DNA of 32,398 nucleotides from assembly GCA_027048495.1 (NCBI GenBank), contig JALTWS010000046.1:1-32398 (forward strand), written 5' to 3'. The position numbers were made by a program, and so were the translations under genes. Shown here one piece after another: positions 575 to 30,916 of this stretch (positions are counted from its first letter, which is position 1; the number at the start of each line of letters is the position of its first letter). The DNA is from Candidatus Azambacteria bacterium (GTDB taxonomy: Bacteria > Patescibacteriota > Minisyncoccia > GWC2-36-17 > M10-OD1-4). Below the pieces are notes generated by a model, which was given only the letters and a program-made list of their open reading frames with translations, was not told the origin of the DNA and made no database searches.

Positions 575-3954
<3,380 letters not shown>

Positions 3955-20806: not shown

Positions 20807-22096
20807 ATGAAAACTGACTATCTGACAGAAATGGTTACAGAGGCCCTTATTCAAATATTCAGCCAGCATGAACCTCTAGGGCTTGTTGGCACAGAAGAAG
20901 AATATCTGCTGATAAAAGAAAATGGAGCTCTGGGAAGCACAGAAGAAGTATTTGACTTCTTTGAATCTCAAGGACTTGAAGTTGAGACGGATCCTGACAC
21001 AGATGTTGTTGTTGCCGTAAAAGAAGATTTTTATAGCATTCCAATAGGATCGGACGCTGGAGCAAACACAATAGAAATAAATCTGCCTCCGTGCGAGTCT
21101 ATCCATGATATAGAAACACATCTGAAAAGGGTTCTGGGGAAAGTGCAAGATGCATGTCTTGCAACCAACCAAAAAATACTTGGACTTGGAATTATGCCAA
21201 ATGTATTGCCAGAGCAAATCAAATGGCAAAAAAAGGGTAGATACAAAAAAATACGAGAAGTTCTGTTTCCAGAAATTGATATTATAACAACTACTGCCTC
21301 AAGCCAAACTCATATGGTCTTTGAAGCAAAAAATATGATAAGGGCGCTAAATGCTATTATGGCAGTATCAGGGCCCGTAATATCAATTACGGCAAACTCA
21401 AAAGTCCAACAAAACAAAATATCTGAATACGCATGCTCAAGAGAACATGTGTACCATACATTTAAAATGAGCCAAAGAGTAGGAATGCCAAAAAATCCTT
21501 TTTTTGACATAAAAGACTTTGCCAGATACTGCCTTGAGCAGGGAATGTTTTTGTACAAAGAAAAAGAAGGAGATCTTTCTTTTAAAAAATATCGTGGAAC
21601 ATTTGGGAGTTTTTTGAAAGATACAGGGACAAAAGACATACAAACTATAAAAAGGCACCTTAAAGTCCATATGGGAACTTTGTGGCTTTGCGTAAGGCCA
21701 AACCCTCAAGGAACAATAGAATCAAGAATGTGTTGCCAACAGCCCCCTTGGGCACAAGGCGCTGTGCATGCATTAAATATAGGCCTTATGCACAACTGGC
21801 AAGAGGTTGAATCTCTTGCTCGCTCAAAGCCATGGGACTTTTGGAAAAAAGCCTATATGCAAGCAATAAAAGATGGTCCTTTTGCTTGTGTAGAAAAAAT
21901 CCCATTATCTGATATTTCTTGGCAAGTCCTTGAAATATCAGAAAAAGGACTCCAAAAAAGAAACAAAAATGAAGAAGTTTATCTAAAAGACTTCAAAGAA
22001 AGGTTAGAAAATCCCAAAAAATCTCCCGCCTTTTTGGCAGAAAAAATATTTAATAAAAAATCAACAGCAGGACTTATGGAAAGGTTCTGCTATTAA
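20807..22096 (+). CDS. Glutamate-cysteine ligase family (GCS2) protein
   Basis: An ATP-dependent carboxylate-amine ligase of the plant-type/EgtA-like GCS2 family. GTEEEYLLI near residue 28 supplies metal-binding glutamates. Next come TIEINLPPCESIHD, TTTASSQTHMVFE and GTIESRMCCQQPPW, matching the order of the family motifs. The length is 429 aa. The ATG sits 8 nt after AAGGAG. A TTGACA (20733-20738 region) lies upstream. It may join glutamate to an amine or cysteine, but the true substrate is unknown. The neighbour is a glutamine amidotransferase, which hints at a shared product. It ends at a strong terminator. Confidence 0.78.
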   Translation: MKTDYLTEMVTEALIQIFSQHEPLGLVGTEEEYLLIKENGALGSTEEVFDFFESQGLEVETDPDTDVVVAVKEDFYSIPIGSDAGANTIEINLPPCESIHDIETHLKRVLGKVQDACLATNQKILGLGIMPNVLPEQIKWQKKGRYKKIREVLFPEIDIITTTASSQTHMVFEAKNMIRALNAIMAVSGPVISITANSKVQQNKISEYACSREHVYHTFKMSQRVGMPKNPFFDIKDFARYCLEQGMFLYKEKEGDLSFKKYRGTFGSFLKDTGTKDIQTIKRHLKVHMGTLWLCVRPNPQGTIESRMCCQQPPWAQGAVHALNIGLMHNWQEVESLARSKPWDFWKKAYMQAIKDGPFACVEKIPLSDISWQVLEISEKGLQKRNKNEEVYLKDFKERLENPKKSPAFLAEKIFNKKSTAGLMERFCY

Positions 22097-22164: not shown

Positions 22165-22908
22165 ATGAAAAAAATACTTCTGATACAATTTAGGACAGAC
22201 AAATCAGCCCCCCATGAAAGGGAGTGCTTTTTTAGATTTTGCCAAGATGATAAATCTTCTCTTGATGCCATAAATTCTCTGGACGATGACATTCCTTGGG
22301 ATAAGCCTAAAAAAATACTGGAAAAATACCATGCAATAATACTTGGAGGGTCAGGAGAGTTTTATTTTTCTGGAAACAAAGAAGAAAAAAAGCAAGAGCA
22401 ATTCCACACTCTTTTAAAAAATATAGAACCAACAATAAATTTTATAATAGAAAACGACATTCCAACACTAGGAGTCTGTTTTGGACACCAAACACTAGGA
22501 TATTTCCTTGAAAGCGAAGTAAAAAAAGATGCTTCCCAGGCAAAAGCAGGAACTCATAAAATAAACCTTCTTGATGAAGCAAAAAAAGACCGTCTATTTG
22601 ACGGACTACCAAATAACTTTGAAGCCCAATATGCACACAAAGACTCCTTAACAAACCTGCCAAAAGACTCTGTTTTGCTTGCAAACGGAGGAGAAAAATG
22701 CAAATTCAGCTCTTTTCGGCATAAAAACAATATATACGGCGTCCAATTCCATCCAGAGTTAAGACACAAAGATGTTTTGATTAAAATAGATATGTACCCT
22801 GATTATGTAAAAAACAAAGAAGCTTTCTTAAAAAATATAAAAGATACTCCAATAGCAACAAAAATAATAAAAAACTTTATAACCAACATAACAAAACCAG
22901 CGCTATAA
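22165..22908 (+). CDS. Class I glutamine amidotransferase
   Basis: A 247-aa GATase1-fold protein. Catalytic Cys105 in LGVCFGHQTLGYFLE, and His196/Glu198 in YGVQFHPELR. It resembles the stand-alone GMP synthase-like amidotransferases, with no synthetase domain attached. It would hydrolyse glutamine and pass ammonia to a partner, or hydrolyse a gamma-glutamyl bond. Gene order suggests the GCS2 ligase as partner. A TATAAT-like stretch (about 22147-22154) precedes it; the ribosome binding site GGAA is weak. The stop codon lies in the loop of the downstream terminator. Confidence 0.85.
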   Translation: MKKILLIQFRTDKSAPHERECFFRFCQDDKSSLDAINSLDDDIPWDKPKKILEKYHAIILGGSGEFYFSGNKEEKKQEQFHTLLKNIEPTINFIIENDIPTLGVCFGHQTLGYFLESEVKKDASQAKAGTHKINLLDEAKKDRLFDGLPNNFEAQYAHKDSLTNLPKDSVLLANGGEKCKFSSFRHKNNIYGVQFHPELRHKDVLIKIDMYPDYVKNKEAFLKNIKDTPIATKIIKNFITNITKPAL

Positions 22909-22921: not shown

Positions 22922-22926
22922 AAGTG

Positions 22927-23000
22927 TGCGCGTGCCAAGACTTGAACTTGGGACCTCACCCTTATCAGAGGTGCGCTCTAACCAACTGAGCTACACGCGC
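22927..23000 (-). tRNA. tRNA-Ile (GAT)
   Basis: Anticodon loop CTGATAA. The acceptor GCGCGTG pairs with CACGCGC with discriminator A. T-arm AAGTTCAAGTCTT. CCA not encoded. It keeps the usual place of tRNA-Ile after 16S, but 23S is not behind it, and a hairpin at 23048-23077 separates it from 16S. Confidence 0.94.
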
Positions 23001-23115: not shown

Positions 23116-24244
23116 CCCGTTCTGCTTTTTCAGAACAGTTGCCGATTTTTAAGATGTTGTTCGGCCAACCATCATACTTTGCAAAAGCAAAGGCCGACCA
23201 TTCTAGAGTAGAATTTCAATCCCTGCTTATTTTAACAAAAGTTAAAATTAGGCAGAGACCAGCACCTCGCTGTCCGAAATTCTATTGCGCAATGCGCGTC
23301 CCTAGAAAGGAGGTGATCCATGCACAGCTTCCGCTACGCATGCCTTGTTACGACTTCACCCTTGTCACTGACCCCACCTTAGGCCCTCGATTAATTCTTG
23401 GGACTTCGGGTGTTGCCAGCTCCCTTGGTGTGACGGGCGGTGAGTACAAGACTCGAGAACGTATTCACCGCAGTATAGCTGACCTGCGATTACTAGCAAT
23501 TCCAACTTCATGAGGTCGAGTTGCAGACCTCAATCCGAACTGGGACCGGCTTTGGTGGGATTAGCTCCGCCTTACGGCTTGGCGACCCATTGTACCGGCC
23601 ATTGTAGCACGTGTGTAGCCCAGGGCATCAAAGGGCCATGCTGATTTGACGTCATCCTCTCCTTCCTCCCCCTGAACGAGGGCAGTTTCGCCAGACACTT
23701 GTAACTGGCAATGAGGGTTGCGTTCGTTACCCGACTTAACGGAACACCTCAAGGCACGAACTGACGGCAACCATGCAGCACCTGTCCAGCACCCTCGGAG
23801 GCTTCCCTCCTTTCGGAGGGCGTGCAGCTGGATTTCAAGCCCTGGTGAGGTTCGTCGGTTATCGTCGAATTAAACCACATGCTCCACTGCTTGTGCGAGT
23901 CCCCGTCTATTCCTTTGAGTTTTAAGCTTGCGCTCGTACTTCCCAGGCGGGATGCTTAACGCGTTAGCTTCGCCACTTGAAGGGTCGACACTTCAAATAG
24001 CCAGCATCCATCGTTTACGGCGTGGACTACAAGGGTATCTAATCCTTTTCGCTACCCACGCTTTCGTCTCTCAGCGTCAGAGACAGGCCAGTGTGATGCC
24101 TTCGCCTTTGGTATTCCCTATGATATCAACGGATTTCACCCCTACACCATAGGTTCTACACACCTCTCCTGCTCTCTAGTTTGCCAGTATCTGGCGCGGC
24201 CTCGGAGTTGAGCTCCGAGATTTAACACCAGACTTGGAAAAGCC

Positions 24245-24288
24245 TAGTATCTTTTTGAGCTTAACAAGCTAAGCGCAAAAAGATACTA
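24245..24288 (-). other. Expanded hairpin in 16S helix 21 region
   Basis: TAGTATCTTTTTG (24245-24257) pairs perfectly with 24276-24288, with a second inner stem AGCTTA/TAAGC-like. It follows GTAGGCGGTTTG, the start of the helix 20-21 region, and looks like a local expansion of that helix. Confidence 0.6.
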
Positions 24289-24509
24289 AACACAAACCGC
24301 CTACAGACGCTTTACGCCCAATAAATCCGGATAACGCTTGAGGTCTCTGTATTACCGCTGCTGCTGGCACAGAGTTAGCAACCTCTTATTCGTGTGGTAC
24401 CGTCATAACTTCGTCCCACACAAAAGAAGTTTACACCCCTAAGGGCTTCATCCTCCACGCGGTGTCGCTCCGTCAGGCTTTCGCCCATTGCGGAATATTC
24501 TCGACTGCG

Positions 24510-24546
<37 letters not shown>

Positions 24547-24584
24547 CGCTGGGGGCCATGCTCTCACACCCCCTACCCGTCATA

Positions 24585-24622
<38 letters not shown>

Positions 24623-24754
24623 ACATAGGCCTCTCCCAAAGCGCCGGAGCTTTACCCAACACAAGGTTGGGACTATCAGGTATTAGCCCACCTTTCGGCG
24701 AGTTATCCCTGTCTTTGGGGCAAGTACCAATGTGTTACTAGCTCGTTTGCCACT

Positions 24755-25207
24755 CTGGAGTCTGGATTCTAGTTACTAGTTTACTAGTTTTATTGTTAAA
24801 ATGAGATATTATAAATTTTGTTTAAGGCGTGTAAGCTGTTTACCAACAATGATATACTCATTTACAAGATGTTCATACTCACTTTTATCAATTAAGCCAA
24901 CATTAAAAGCATCTCTTAGATGACTTATCAGTTCATCACAAGAACCAATAGAATTAGATATATAATGCCTAAATTCTTTTTTAGACTTATTATATCCTTC
25001 TGTAACATTTGCATGAATAGAATTAGCAGATCTGATTATTTGGCTACCTAATTCCTTCTGATCAATAAATTTCCAAGAACGAACCATCTTGTACACACAA
25101 GGAAATAATTTGTTTGATCTTTGATAAACTTGAAGTTTTTGAAAATTATTCATAACTTCATCATTATACCAAATACTAGACGCTAGTTACCAGAATCCAG
25201 ACTCCAG
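24755..25207 (-). other. Intervening sequence (IVS) in 16S helix 6 with encoded protein
   Basis: The flanks read AAGTCGAACG / AGTGGCAAACGAG, the two sides of helix 6, and everything between is extra. Terminal inverted repeats of 25 nt (24755-24779 and 25183-25207, two mismatches, CTGGAGTCTGGATTCT...) would extend helix 6 into a long stem. Such stems in rRNA IVSs are cut by RNase III, leaving fragmented rRNA. No group I core or group II domain was seen, so this is an IVS and not a splicing intron. Confidence 0.88.
24809..25153 (-). CDS. S23-type four-helix-bundle protein encoded in the 16S IVS
   Basis: 114 aa, on the same strand as the rRNA. The start FQKLQVYQRSNKLFPCVYKM matches the F-x-x-L-x-V-(W/Y)-x-x-(A/S) opening of the rRNA-IVS (S23) family. 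The middle is SQIIRSANSIHANVTEGYNK (usual form IRRAAxSIPxNIAEG), and SNSIGSCDELISHL corresponds to the A.GS..E...L motif. The family forms pentameric four-helix bundles; its role in IVSs is unknown. It is the only protein gene inside either rRNA. No clear ribosome binding site is visible before the ATG. Overlapping plus-strand frames are spurious. Confidence 0.9.
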   Translation of the reverse strand: MNNFQKLQVYQRSNKLFPCVYKMVRSWKFIDQKELGSQIIRSANSIHANVTEGYNKSKKEFRHYISNSIGSCDELISHLRDAFNVGLIDKSEYEHLVNEYIIVGKQLTRLKQNL

Positions 25208-25233
25208 CGTTCGACTTGCATGCCTTATCCACA

Positions 25234-25269
<36 letters not shown>

Positions 25270-25279
25270 GTTAAGAAAA

Positions 25280-25408: not shown

Positions 25409-25490
25409 TTGTCAATATCATGTACTCGTCCATAACATATTGCACTTTTCAGCTTTGTAGTTGTTAATAATAAACTTCATGGAAGATATA
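25409..25490. repeat. 82-bp direct repeat, copy A (16S side)
   Basis: 77 of 82 positions are identical to 27414-27495. On the minus strand it ends with TTGACA, which can serve as a -35 for 16S. It also holds a 20-codon frame (MKFIINNYKAEKCNMLWTST), whose changes relative to copy B are at codons 7, 9 and 10. Confidence 0.9.
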
Positions 25491-25555
25491 ACCTAAAGCA
25501 TACGAGTATCCAAAGATAAAAAAGAGAGCGGTTTGTTAACTCGCTTAAAATTTTT

Positions 25556-26506
25556 TTAATTTTTAATTTCTAATAATTCATCTATTAAAGCATCTGTTAT
25601 TTGCATACCGGTTAACTCTTCTATCTAGACAAACTGACTGCCCGGATTCATTTCTAAAAAAACAATTTCATCTTTTGGGGTAATAATTAAATCAAAAGAT
25701 GCAAATTTCACATTAAATAATTTCATCATTTTTAGGAGATCAAATGTTGTCTTATTATCCAATTTGTACTCACTATGAGAAATCTCTTCACCGTATCTGC
25801 GCCAATCAACGCTTGTTTTACTACTTGACTGAGAATCAATCATACAAGCAAAAACTCTTTTGCCAACAATTGTAACTCTTAATTCAAACTTTTTTTCTAT
25901 ATATTCCTGCAGAATAACAGGAGAATATTTAATGGAATTAAATTTTGCTTTAATGTCTGGAGTAACTATGTGAGTGTATACTGCTTCAAATCCATTTGAT
26001 AACTTTTCACCATATCCAGACAAAGCCTTAATTGCTGTTTTATGACAGCCGTTAAGAAACTTTCTTGCTTCTTCAGGGTTATTTGTTATTAATGTTTTTG
26101 GTATATTAAACCCAATTTTTGAAGCAATTTGTAATTGTTTTATTTTGTTTCTTCCAAAAATTAAATCAATTTCTTTGTCTATCACAGGACAGTCCAATGC
26201 TCCCACAAGCCAACGCATAATAAAATCCCATTCTTGCTCTGCAAACTCACACGCCTTTGGATTATGTATGCTTAATTTTGGCTTCGCAATTCTTCTTAAC
26301 CAAGCGGATTGAAAGCTACCTAAATTGACTACTGAATTATTATGTGTAACAATAAATTTATTAAAGTTGTTATCTATTTGTAATTTCACATATCCAGCAT
26401 ACAACTCATCAGAATTTAACCTAAAAAATTTGATGCCTCTTTGTATAATTTTATTAATCACATAATCAGCTGTTGCATCCTCTTTTTTAGTGATAATCAA
26501 TAACAT
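25556..26506 (-). pseudogene. MvdC/MvdD-like ATP-grasp peptide ligase with in-frame TAG
   Basis: A RimK-fold ATP-grasp of the graspetide (microviridin-type) ligase group. The N-terminal MLLIITKKEDATADYVI then FFRLNSDEL, SAWLRRIAKPKL, EWDFIMRWLVGALDCPVID, GRNKIKQLQIASKIGFNIPK, VILQEYIEKKFELRV, SSKTSVDWRRYG, and the metal-site FLEMNPGSQFV. At 25625-25627 a TAG follows, yet the frame goes on IEELTGMQITDALIDELL to a TAA at 25556. Relatives read NPNGQWxWIEELTG here, so TGG to TAG is the simplest change. It may be a recent nonsense mutation (293-aa product) or amber readthrough (315 aa or more). A strong AGGAGGG precedes the ATG. Confidence 0.82.
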
Positions 26507-26550
26507 AATAATACCCTCCTATTTAATTTTTAAAGATCTCAACGTAAAAT

Positions 26551-27137
26551 ATGTTACAAAACTTTAAAAAAATCAATAATACAAAATTATTGCAAGCTTT
26601 TGACTTGGATCAAAAAGCGCTAAAAGAACCCGACGCTAAAAAAAAGCCTTATTATTTAAAAAATCATCTAAGATATACAAAGACATATTAAAAGTTAACC
26701 CGAATGACTGGTCAACTCTAAAAAATTATGCAAACCTTTTGTTGCATACTAAAAAATTTAAAAAAGCTTTAGAGATATATAAAAAACTACTTAAAATATC
26801 TACAAACAATCAAAAAACAAGTATATATAACGGCATAGGCAATGTTTTTAGAATGCTCGCTGAAACATCAAAAGATTCAATGAAATATAATAAAAAAGCT
26901 TTATCATATTATAAAAAAGCAATAAACTCTAATGCAAAATATAAGGGTTTATATTTTTCAAATGCATCGTATATATATGGGAAACTTAAAATGTGGGATG
27001 ATGCTATAAAAACATCTAAAAAGGCCATATACCTGCTAAAAAAAGAAGAAAAAGAAGGAATAAAACATGGAAACCAAATAAAAATACTTGAATTAGAAAA
27101 CAGTCTATACAAAGAATATAAAAAAAAGACCCAATAA
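26551..27137 (+). pseudogene. TPR-repeat protein with a one-base frameshift in an A8 run
   Basis: An ATG at 26551 opens MLQNFKKINNTKLLQAFDLDQ and continues to an A8 tract (26638-26645), after which that frame soon stops at 26689. The next frame continues without a break as KIYKDILKVNPNDWSTLKN, ANLLLHTKKFKKALEIYKKL and two further tetratricopeptide-like units to a TAA at 27135. One more A would join both parts into 195 aa. It is transcribed away from the ATP-grasp gene (44 nt between) and toward the small peptide gene. TPRs suggest a protein-binding role. Transcriptional slippage on the A-run could restore the product. Confidence 0.7.
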
Positions 27138-27152
27138 ATTAGCAATATTGGG
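27130..27152 (-). terminator. Terminator after the putative precursor peptide gene
   Basis: CCCAATA/TATTGGG stem with a 9-nt loop, followed on the minus strand by TCTTTTTTTTAT. It overlaps the last codons and stop of the convergent TPR gene. Confidence 0.7.
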
Positions 27153-27175
27153 CCTTAAAATTATTATGCAATCAA

Positions 27176-27325
27176 TTAGTCATCGTAGTCATCTTCTCTT
27201 CCAGCGGTACCAGTTGATTTTGACATATATGCCTCCCCTGGCCTCTCTTCGATAAATTCCCTCAATTGAAACATCAAAGGCTCCTCTGAGTAATATTCGC
27301 TATGATCAAGATCATCTTCTGACAT
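27176..27325 (-). CDS. Putative graspetide (omega-ester RiPP) precursor peptide, 49 aa
   Basis: The ATG lies 9 nt after a perfect AAGGAGG. Residues 1-15 are acidic and Tyr/Ser rich. PLMFQLREFIEERPG (16-30) resembles the amphipathic PFFxRFLE leader helix that docks on graspetide ligases. The tail SKSTGTAGREDDYDD (35-49) places Ser35, Ser37, Thr38 and Thr40 before Glu44, Asp45, Asp46, Asp48 and Asp49. These are the donor and acceptor residues that ATP-grasp ligases join as side-chain esters or amides. The gene shares strand and cassette with such a ligase (670 nt downstream). The product and ring pattern are not determined. Confidence 0.68.
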   Translation of the reverse strand: MSEDDLDHSEYYSEEPLMFQLREFIEERPGEAYMSKSTGTAGREDDYDD

Positions 27326-27413
27326 TATGATTTACCTCCTTAATAATAATCATTTAAAGAACATACAAAAGCATTAAAGCTACATATGTAAATATATTAT
27401 TTATATTATAGCA

Positions 27414-27495
27414 TTGTCAATATCATGTACTCGTCCATAACATATTGCACTTTTCAGGATTGTAGCTGTTAATAATAAACTTCATGGGTGATATA
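27414..27495. repeat. 82-bp direct repeat, copy B (distal side)
   Basis: Partner of 25409-25490 in the same orientation. On the minus strand it ends in TTGACA and runs into ATGCTATAATATAAATAATA, so it also places a -35 upstream of the precursor peptide gene. Confidence 0.9.
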
Positions 27496-27742
27496 AGTCC
27501 TAAAAAGAATGATGCGGTCTTTTTGTATTGTACCACAAAAGCCAGTTTGTCAGTTTGTCGTTGAATTTGTTTAAGTCATAAGCCAGTTTATTTAAATTAA
27601 ACTACAAACTTTTCTTTTGGGTTTTGTTGAATCTCTCTATGTATATGCGTCTTTTGTTATGGCTTGTATTCCATTATTTGTACCAAAATATTAGGATTTT
27701 TACTTTTTGCAAAACACACAAACTTTATTTCTCATTCCTATC

Positions 27743-28195: not shown

Positions 28196-30916
28196 TTATG
28201 GTTTTATGGGTACTTCAGAGTACACAAAACTTCCGTTGTAGTTGTGTACGAAGTACAGTTTTTTGCCGGAAATTATATCAACATCCAAAGCACCGCTTCT
28301 TATGTCTCCCCACATTGGAGAGAATATGTCGGTTTTTCTCACGGCTTGGCTGTTCCAATTTCCGGACAAACTATCGTATTGATACTCAACCAAATTCATA
28401 TACCCACTTCTGTATTCTGACTCCTGTAAAGCAAGTATATTTCCGGTTGTTGTATCAAACCAAACTTTATGGGGGATTTTTGTATATCCAATAGCTCCAA
28501 TAACAAATGGCTCAAAATTACTAAGGTCGCCATAAATTATAGGAGCTACAAACACATTTTCCCATGTATCTCCATTATCACATGACCTTAAAACATATAT
28601 ATCTCCTTTGCTGTCTCTGTATGGATAATGCAAACAGGAAGCAAAAAGATATATTTTTCCTTTTGTAGGATGCCATATGGAGCTGTAGGAAAGTTTTTCT
28701 CCTATTTTTTTAGCAGGAGTAAAAATGTCATTTTGTATGTCATAGGACATATATTGTATTCCACTTGTCTGGCATCCAAATATTATATGCAAGACTCCGT
28801 TGTGTTTTCCAAAAGCATTCCTTTTGCAATTGTAATGTTCAATTTCATCTGGTCTGCTTTTTATCTGCCAAGACGCAGATTCATCAAAGCTGACAGCAAA
28901 ACCTCCACTGTTTGTGACGTATATTCCCTGCCCGTCAACAAATGCTCCTTTGATGCCAAAAGGAGCAACAACATACTGCCAGTTTGATGTGAAGCCGACA
29001 TTTCTCATAAGCCAGCTTCCATTGAACATAAACACATAAACAGTGCCTGCATCATCAACAAATGTGTATTCCGGATAAAATCCACTGGCAACAAACCCAG
29101 AAGGCTCAAATGTCTGTCCCTCATCGTAAGAGAAAGAGACATTCAAAGAACCTCCCGTTGATATGTATTTATCAGCCCAAAATGCAGCTATTTTGTTCTG
29201 ATAAACTGCCGTCTTTACCCAAAATACACTACTGTTTTCTATAACAAGCGGATCAATATTGTATATTTTTGGAGTAACATTTACAGTGGCTTTTGCTGTT
29301 GCTGTTGCTCCTCCGCTGTCTGTTACGATGTATACAAACTCATCCTGCCCTAAAAATTCGGCATTTGAGGTATACAACAAAGACTTCCCATCAGAGGAGA
29401 CAGACACCGTTCCGTTTTGCGGAGCCAAAGACACATCAACAGTATATGTGTCCTGCTCGTCAATATCAGAAACTTCTGGAGTTATAATAACTTGTGTTTC
29501 TGTTTCTGCAAAAACAGAAACGTCTGATGCCAAAGGAGGGTCATTGACCGGTGTAACGGTTATATATACCCTCGCTGTTTTTTCTACTATTCCATCACTA
29601 ACAATAAGCTCTGTATAAAACTCTCCGTTAAGATCAAAAAACGGAATTATACAGAGACTCTTTCTATCAAAAAACATCTCTATATCTTTCATAAACTGAA
29701 TTTTTGCACTGTAAGATCCGGGTCGACCAAAAAAATCCAATGGAGGACCATCAGGATCCACAATGTTAAGTTCATGACAAGTAAGACCACTGTCTTCATC
29801 TACAACTATGTATGTATCATCAATCCTTACTATAGGATCATCAACAGGATTTACATCTACAATTATCCTTTGATCAACAAACAAACCTCCAGAGTCTATT
29901 ATTCTTAAAACAAAATAGTCTTCTCCAAAATAATCCTTGTTTGGAGTGTAAGACACAGTTTTTCCGTTAGAAACTGCATTTCCATTCAAGGCGTTGGACA
30001 CTATTTCAAAAGTGTGAGAGTCTCCAACATCAATGTCTCTCACCTCAAAAGAAAATGTTCCTGTAGTGTCCTCATCAACAGATACAAAAACATCTGTAAC
30101 GCCTGATGGAGGATCGTTCACCGGAATAACCGTTATTTTTGCCACACCCTCAACAAAAAGTCCTTCCGAATCAATCGCTTTGTACCTGAAGCTGTCGCTT
30201 CCGTTGTAGTTTGGATTCGGAAAATACTCAAACGCTCCTGTAGGATACACACGAAGTGTTCCATGCTCAGGAAGTGTTAATGCTTCTACTTTGTGAGTAT
30301 CATCATCCGGATCTACAACAAGAGGCTTGCCAAGCCAAAACGAGTCTTCCTCTACAACAATCTCAAGAGAAGTTGAAGTTGGAGGCTGATTTGGCTTAGG
30401 AACAGGGTCAGGTTCTGGATCAGGAACGGGATCCGGCACAGGTTTTGGAGTAGGCTTCGGATCAGGAACGGGATCCGGCACAGGTTTTGGAGTAGGCTTC
30501 GGATCAGGAACGGGATCTGAAGCAGGACCTGAATTCTCTGGATTCTCAGAAGCGGCATCAGGCACAAATTCTGGCTCAGAATCAGGAACGGGATACGTCA
30601 CAGGCTCCGGAGCAGGACCCGGATTAAGAACGGGATCTGAAGCAGGACCTGAATTCTCTGGATTCTCAGAAACGGCATCAGGCACAAACTCCGGCTCCGG
30701 ACCAGAATAAGGTTCTGACAAAGGAGGCTCCTCCTCCAAAACCGGAACAGTTGAGCCAGATTCTGCATCTTCTTCTTGAGATGGGTTATTAGAAGTCACA
30801 ACAGGCATATTTTCTTCAGGAAAGGATACCTGTTTTTGAATGTCTTCTCCACCACCTCCTCCTCCGCAAGCAGACAGAAAAGACAACACAAACAAAGCAA
30901 AAATCAGCTTTTTCAT
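28196..30916 (-). CDS. Large lipoprotein: Pro-rich stalk, cadherin-like domains, BNR beta-propeller
   Basis: 906 aa. A type II signal with lipobox LSAC puts the acylated Cys at residue 17, followed by GGGGGG. Residues 25-185 are a Pro/Asp/Glu stalk with 40-residue (PEFVPDAxSENPENSGPASDP) and 14-residue (DPKPTPKPVPDPVP) repeats. Residues 185-555 hold about four cadherin/VCBS-like domains, each ending in PVNDPP and containing DxDxGD or NYNGSDSF motifs that suggest calcium binding. The C-terminal 350 residues carry Asp-box motifs SYDEGQTF, SFDESASW and SCDNGDTW, as in sialidase-type beta-propellers. It is therefore a surface-anchored, long-reach adhesin or glycan-binding protein. A strong AAGGAGG precedes the ATG. 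Confidence 0.85.
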   Translation of the reverse strand: MKKLIFALFVLSFLSACGGGGGGEDIQKQVSFPEENMPVVTSNNPSQEEDAESGSTVPVLEEEPPLSEPYSGPEPEFVPDAVSENPENSGPASDPVLNPGPAPEPVTYPVPDSEPEFVPDAASENPENSGPASDPVPDPKPTPKPVPDPVPDPKPTPKPVPDPVPDPEPDPVPKPNQPPTSTSLEIVVEEDSFWLGKPLVVDPDDDTHKVEALTLPEHGTLRVYPTGAFEYFPNPNYNGSDSFRYKAIDSEGLFVEGVAKITVIPVNDPPSGVTDVFVSVDEDTTGTFSFEVRDIDVGDSHTFEIVSNALNGNAVSNGKTVSYTPNKDYFGEDYFVLRIIDSGGLFVDQRIIVDVNPVDDPIVRIDDTYIVVDEDSGLTCHELNIVDPDGPPLDFFGRPGSYSAKIQFMKDIEMFFDRKSLCIIPFFDLNGEFYTELIVSDGIVEKTARVYITVTPVNDPPLASDVSVFAETETQVIITPEVSDIDEQDTYTVDVSLAPQNGTVSVSSDGKSLLYTSNAEFLGQDEFVYIVTDSGGATATAKATVNVTPKIYNIDPLVIENSSVFWVKTAVYQNKIAAFWADKYISTGGSLNVSFSYDEGQTFEPSGFVASGFYPEYTFVDDAGTVYVFMFNGSWLMRNVGFTSNWQYVVAPFGIKGAFVDGQGIYVTNSGGFAVSFDESASWQIKSRPDEIEHYNCKRNAFGKHNGVLHIIFGCQTSGIQYMSYDIQNDIFTPAKKIGEKLSYSSIWHPTKGKIYLFASCLHYPYRDSKGDIYVLRSCDNGDTWENVFVAPIIYGDLSNFEPFVIGAIGYTKIPHKVWFDTTTGNILALQESEYRSGYMNLVEYQYDSLSGNWNSQAVRKTDIFSPMWGDIRSGALDVDIISGKKLYFVHNYNGSFVYSEVPIKP
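30417..30720 (-). repeat. Tandem DNA repeats coding the Pro-rich stalk
   Basis: A 42-bp unit is repeated perfectly at 30417-30458 and 30459-30500, with a third start at 30501. A second block around 30521-30580 recurs 120 bp later at 30641-30700 with few changes. Both keep the frame, so the stalk length can change by slippage or recombination. Confidence 0.88.

Follow-up and report, generated by a model that had tools for sequence, protein, structure and literature searches.

Organisation of the locus

The window, that is the whole stretch of 32,398 nucleotides that was analysed, contains a small cassette adjoining the 16S rRNA gene (23306-25275, minus strand), and the ORFs for a ligase and a short peptide lie on the same minus strand. 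The genome has a size of 0.80 Mb and is 98.6% complete, consistent with the description 'CPR-type', and an earlier note on this DNA was right in placing a ligase and a peptide beside the 16S gene of such a genome. Its outline of the cassette holds with two corrections: both genes are present, but the stated span crosses an in-frame TAG and the ligase ORF itself covers only 25625-26506. The two genes are also separated by a frameshifted TPR gene on the plus strand, which is absent from the earlier description. The GC content of the cassette is 28.7%, compared with 32.2% in genome stretches, and about 4% of 412 windows are equally low. The cassette and its flanks comprise the following features.

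25409-25491, plus strand: left copy of an 83-nt direct repeat, equal to an insertion sequence right end plus 12 nt (repeat comparison)
25556-25624, minus strand: remainder of the ligase frame past the TAG, with 22 codons before a closing TAA; it includes the IEELTG segment and predicted helices and matches the C-termini of relatives in the alignment
25625-26506, minus strand: predicted ATP-grasp ligase of the MvdC/MvdD type, 293 aa up to its TAG stop (PF21068, TIGR04184/04187/04185, CdnC 7mgv)
26551-27137, plus strand: TPR-repeat protein gene, frameshifted, two frames joined at an A8 run at 26638-26645 (weak TPR_2/TPR_8 matches)
27176-27325, minus strand: predicted graspetide precursor, 49 aa (RBS AAGGAGGT; homologue beside the sister ligase; conserved G39, D45 and D48)
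27391-27420, minus strand: promoter-like site of the peptide gene, TTGACA-18-TATATT (11/12 consensus matches; consensus only)
27414-27496, plus strand: right copy of the 83-nt direct repeat, 94% identical to the left copy and 2005 nt apart from it

Other parts of the window have features of their own. The 16S gene carries an insert of about 450 bases (24756-25207) whose product is a four-helix bundle from the 23S intervening-sequence family (PF05635, E 1.1e-23), and the 16S gene of the family member G001 is without it. The rRNA operon is split, with the 16S gene and tRNA-Ile (22926-23000) about 19 kb from the 23S/5S genes (577-3954). Beside the tRNA-Ile, a glutamate-cysteine-ligase-like gene (20807-22096) is followed by a class I glutamine-amidotransferase-like gene (22165-22908), both on the plus strand and both below curated cut-offs. 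The minus strand at 28196-30916 encodes a surface-type protein of 906 aa, in which a proline-rich stretch accompanies Big_9/cadherin-like domains, and palindromes centred on CGATCG, perhaps terminators, recur between genes of this genome (27745-27985, L046 and L047, by eye).

Identity of the ligase

Profile and structure-chain searches of the ligase used the whole frame, translated across its stop. The search against graspetide ligase families that the earlier note had proposed gave 41.4 bits for PF21068 (MvdD pre-ATP-grasp; cut-off 27) and the RimK ATP-grasp domain PF08443 gave 33 bits (cut-off 21), whereas the best NCBIfam models, MvdD (1.3e-58), SAV_5884 (1.7e-58) and MvdC (5.3e-55), all stayed below their curated cut-offs. 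The closest solved chain by sequence is CdnC (7mgv, E 2.5e-37); the ATP-grasp ligases 5ig8 and 5ig9, which we take to be MdnB and MdnC, and AMdnB (7m4s) are also among the near ones.

For the tree and the column counts we used 39 relatives, drawn among other sources from the phylum and class samples. This set excludes the partial loci L006, L008, L102, L104 and L105, the weakly matching L025-L040 and everything from a second sample (23 matches). Residues K121, K160, R210, D234, R236, D272, E285 and N287 are identical in 39/39 relatives, while Q124 is shared by 37/39, Q200 by 38/39 and E208 by 31/39 (Asp in the other 8). These residues presumably have roles at the ATP and metal site, with the E285-x-N287 motif binding metal. 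The tree has 40 rows, and 12 of its 37 inner branches are left open; in it the ligase pairs at 100/100 with a sister ligase from genome G616 (L099/L106) to which it is 44% identical. Judged by the PF21068 match and by the proximity to CdnC, ORF 25625-26506 is a graspetide ATP-grasp ligase of the MvdC/MvdD type, as had been claimed from its motifs.

Precursor peptide

The peptide gene has a strong ribosome binding site, AAGGAGGT, with 8 bases before the ATG, confirming the earlier description, and is preceded by the promoter-like site (27420-27391). The leader P16-L-M-F-Q-L-R-E contains a Phhx(1,2)h motif (PLMFQL, residues 16-21) that is conserved in the sister L099, and an RPG lies close to the leader/core border. 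In the core, K36-S-T-G-T40-A-G-R-E44-D45-D-Y-D48-D, the Ser/Thr/Lys acceptors of K36-S-T-G-T40 come before the donors E44, D45, D46, D48 and D49. The KYPSD pattern of microviridins is absent from the 49 residues, so the core is indeed of a different kind, and searches of the peptide against Pfam and NCBIfam gave no family match at E 1.

Eleven precursors, chosen by eye as alignable and including the L020 peptide although it fails the scan described below, were aligned. All eleven have P16 and D45, and at least 90% have M1, E26, G39 and D48. At the position of KSTGT the other ten read TTSGT (five), TSTGY (two), TSSGT, TTCGT and, in the sister, RTQSS; D45 follows this site after four residues and is itself followed, after two more, by Asp (Glu in the sister). 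A lysine amide ring was considered as a defining trait and is unsupported because Arg replaces K36 in the sister precursor.

Pairing of precursor and ligase

In the sister genome a 50-aa peptide lies 78 nt past the ligase on the same strand. Its VPLVFQLREL and GGEDTYEA correspond to EPLMFQLREF and GREDDYDD of the window, so that the two peptides share a PL[MV]FQLRE leader and a similar [RG]ED.Y tail, with 13/36 identical residues and E 3e-7 in a single pairwise comparison. The peptide of L131 has FIEERP-EA and SGT/TGT in common with that of the window (10/17 identical, E 5e-4 for that pair).

Precursors were also sought with a scan for small ORFs that have an RBS, a leader of the form P-h-h-x(1,2)-h and a tail in which Ser/Thr comes before acidic residues. 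Matches were found at 19/35 ligase loci, our own included, compared with 1/15 control loci with weaker ATP-grasp matches, and at 10 of 17 further ligase loci. The first count leaves aside the duplicates L019, L080 and L081, the locus L026, the partial L104 and L105 and the Bacteroidota loci L003-L010, and the second the six duplicates L115, L119, L120, L126, L128 and L130. No peptide was returned by the scan at the other 16 of the 35 loci; candidates seen by eye in L014, L016, L020, L023 and L024 failed it, and the match in L021 (2278-2415), which overlaps the ligase in antisense, is probably false. The ligase matches of L023 and L024 (G184, G264) lie on the C-terminal side of longer ORFs, 608 and 603 aa in length, and the small peptides upstream of them end in TYST[HW]K[DS]DADDTND[DG].

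The pairing exceeds what chance would give, since the 49-aa peptide is the sole scan match in the whole window and only 4 occur in 446,968 background bases. A chance ORF was rejected on these counts and on the homologue beside the sister ligase. A like leader and tail were recovered beside the sister ligase, similarly built peptides were seen at other ligase loci of the phylum, and the pairing put forward in the earlier note stands: as far as the comparison of loci can tell, the 49-residue peptide belongs with the ligase as its precursor.

The gene between them gives only weak TPR matches (TPR_2, E 1.1e-5; TPR_8, E 8.7e-5), which cover 26739-27137 and stay below the Pfam cut-offs, and its product has slight similarity to the TPR proteins of L093 (E 0.001) and L012 (E 0.008). 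L012, L086 and L093 have the same layout, in which the peptide and ligase genes share a strand and the TPR gene between them runs the other way, and TPR genes also lie close to L083, L085 and L020. Other graspetides have been shown to depend on a partner protein (PMC13097080). Among 16 hand-picked neighbour proteins, 6 are TPR proteins, 6 are DUF6624 proteins (at L013, L016, L022, L084, L094 and L098) and 4 stay below every family cut-off. A search for DUF6624 in the genome of the window gave no match. A C39 peptidase domain is present elsewhere in this genome (C24, C15).

Truncation of the ligase

The ligase frame is interrupted by a TAG after residue 293 and continues for 22 codons to position 25556. 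A complete open frame is not a class-defining feature, and its loss here bears on whether this copy works. In the ligase alignment the TAG column holds Trp in 22, Phe in 15 and Met in 2 of the 39 relatives, and the segment past the stop aligns with their C-termini; where the window reads NPGSQFV, stop, IEELTGMQITDALIDELL, the sister ligase, whose frame is open, reads NPATQFFWIEELTGMPIADAIIDEIL. When the read-through frame was modelled with AlphaFold (mean pLDDT 72.3, 7 rows), helices were placed at 293-299 and 302-312, almost entirely within the part lost to the TAG, and the C-terminal 10-residue blocks have mean pLDDT of 59, 84 and 61.

We compared 482,773 bases of the genome with 648,565 bases of G001 in order to examine how stop codons are used. 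ORFs with a homologue ended within 15 aa of the homologue's end in 27/28 cases for TAG, 150/165 for TAA and 26/28 for TGA. TAG recoded as a sense codon is ruled out by the 27 of 28 TAG-ending ORFs that stop where their homologues stop, and TAG, by the same comparison, is a working stop in this genome. Frameshift-like splits were seen in 0/231 compared genes (77,842 aa). An in-frame stop occurs in 11 of the 231; of these, 7 have it close to one end of the alignment, 2 are doubtful ORFs whose rows contain three stops each, and 2 have it at alignment codons 24-25. An internal stop was found in one of 26 ligase matches of the class sample, the window's own, and in one of 23 matches of the second sample, from another genome. 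In the latter sample, the graspetide-type ligase match L134 (G853:C3:148369-149370) has one internal TAA, and its adjacent 46-aa peptide is identical to that of L135 in G859.

Insertion sequence, distribution and origin

The two 83-nt repeats that bracket the cassette are right ends of an insertion sequence, and similarity to it extends past the right copy (by eye). Further copies are found on contigs C5, C10, C11, C38 and C45. In 6 of 7 cases the right end is followed after 4-5 nt by a TTG that opens a -35-like box, namely in both copies of the window and those of C5, C11, C38 and C45 (L138, L141, L143 and L144), with C10 as the exception. The chance of this spacing is about 9e-8, or 1.6e-6 when the window pair is counted once, both estimates being post hoc; the element may insert beside promoters.

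The ligase was found in 25/383 sampled genomes of the class, own included, and in none of 8 other genomes of the order, and the peptide in 1/3 genomes searched in the family, its own. With the wider model TIGR04187, the phylum sample of 379 genomes gave matches in 66, all below the cut-off and most of them weak, and 7 of 14 control genomes matched as well; 14 of the phylum matches have E 2.4e-47 or better. Among plasmids only distant relatives appeared (78 records, all below 60% identity), and in the viral collection 9 stretches fit a pattern, with no relative among them. At the corresponding site of G001, ribosomal-protein and tRNA-methyltransferase-like genes, according to an ORF reading, lie upstream of the 16S start and the cassette is absent; G002 gave no match. 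The patchy spread of the ligase fits a horizontal gain, by which the cassette may have reached this genome.

Proposed pathway and state of the cassette

In a working cassette, the precursor would bind the ATP-grasp ligase via the PLMFQLRE leader helix. The enzyme would activate D45/E44 and D48 by phosphorylating their side-chain carboxylates, and would then transfer these to side chains of the acceptors S37 (or K36/T38) and T40. One or two ester (or amide) rings would thereby close within the last 14 residues, joining S37 (or K36/T38) and T40 to D45/E44 and D48. Maturation and release of the product, which may function in the interaction with a host or with rivals, would fall to a protease and an exporter encoded at other sites of the genome.

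We consider it quite likely that the locus is a graspetide biosynthetic cassette whose copy here is cut short and probably impaired. Three features make it probable that the copy in the window is impaired or decaying: a TAG that acts as a stop in this genome truncates the ligase, the TPR reading frame is broken by a frameshift, and remnants of insertion sequences lie on either side of the cassette. For the first two of these reasons, the earlier suggestion that this copy makes a graspetide product is not supported. An intact peptide gene with a strong RBS and a promoter-like site speaks against a long decay, as does the retention of the eight invariant catalytic residues of the ligase. Both the ligase stop and the TPR frameshift are read from one genome of the species, on which the distinction between sequencing error and real stop rests.

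The same intact peptide signals and the eight retained residues could also indicate that the cassette is fully active and makes its graspetide, with the TAG and the frameshift being sequencing or assembly errors or being bypassed by readthrough and by slippage on the A8 run; the TPR break does fall in a homopolymer, a usual site of indel error or slippage. We regard this as unlikely, given that TAG ends 27 of 28 ORFs at the expected place, that frameshift splits occur in none of the 231 compared genes, that two lesions fall in two adjoining genes and that only the window's own ligase has an internal stop among the 26 class-sample matches. A more elaborate proposal, which we rate as doubtful, is that the window and L099 form a distinct subclade with a basic-[ST]-x-[GS]-[ST]-x4-D-x2-[DE] core and a two-ring peptide, in which the truncated ligase works or is read through and the cassette has moved between insertion-sequence copies to a 16S-promoter site. 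It is likewise improbable that the 293-aa ligase is functional and the lost C-terminal helices dispensable: the stop falls right after the E285-x-N287 motif and the peptide is undamaged, but the lost segment aligns with the C-termini of relatives, begins at a column that is aromatic in 37/39 and comprises most of the two modelled helices with the block values given above. The reading as a RimK-like enzyme, or another amino-acid ligase, beside an unrelated small gene is hardly credible. RimK-family models do match, if more weakly (2.9e-16), but the enzyme has the MvdD pre-ATP-grasp domain, a homologue of the peptide adjoins the sister ligase, and a scan peptide occurs at a single one of the 15 control loci.

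Returning to the probably impaired graspetide cassette, the locus provides a precursor-ligase pairing, backed by related genomes, for a graspetide subclade of very small bacterial genomes, where graspetides might serve host interaction or rivalry; to our knowledge, no graspetide product has been isolated from such a genome. The window copy is an attractive but risky target, and the sister pair L099/L106 is the better one to test since its ligase frame is open whereas that of the window is shortened.

Comparison with known graspetide systems

The cassette has the same ligase family and the same kind of leader helix as the microviridin systems (MdnA/MdnB/MdnC), but only one ligase and no KYPSD core, and acetyltransferase and ABC transporter genes were not seen in it. 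In microviridins the leader helix is PFFARFL and the core of the TxKYPSDxx type. CdnC, the closest solved ligase, is presumably a chain of the chryseoviridin system from Bacteroidota, whose core pattern we take to be different from that of the window.

The cassette is also close to the graspetide loci of CPR bacteria, which were reported in 2022 with TPR genes and a Phhx(1,2)h leader (Makarova et al., PMC8939145). The earlier note was correct about the kind of cassette, but such CPR loci had already been described. Apart from PMC8939145, no CPR graspetide paper was found among the matches listed for the graspetide, microviridin and RiPP ATP-grasp literature (titles and abstract openings). According to Makarova et al., the loci of CPR branch 1 often, not always, have a TPR gene, and their cores mostly, not all, follow TxxxTx(6-10)Dx(1-4)D. 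The window is alike in its ATP-grasp ligase, its Phhx(1,2)h leader (P-L-M-FQ-L), its CPR-type genome and its TPR gene, weakly matched and in two frames, with TPR genes in the same place in L012, L086 and L093. It differs from branch 1, as described there, in its truncated ligase and in the lack of a DUF6624 match in the genome; our guess is that DUF6624 corresponds to cluster 23 of Makarova et al. 2022. Its core also fails the branch 1 pattern when this is read strictly, with K36 in place of the first Thr (KxxxT; Arg in the sister). CPR graspetide loci were known before, and the cassette is a further member with its own core variant.
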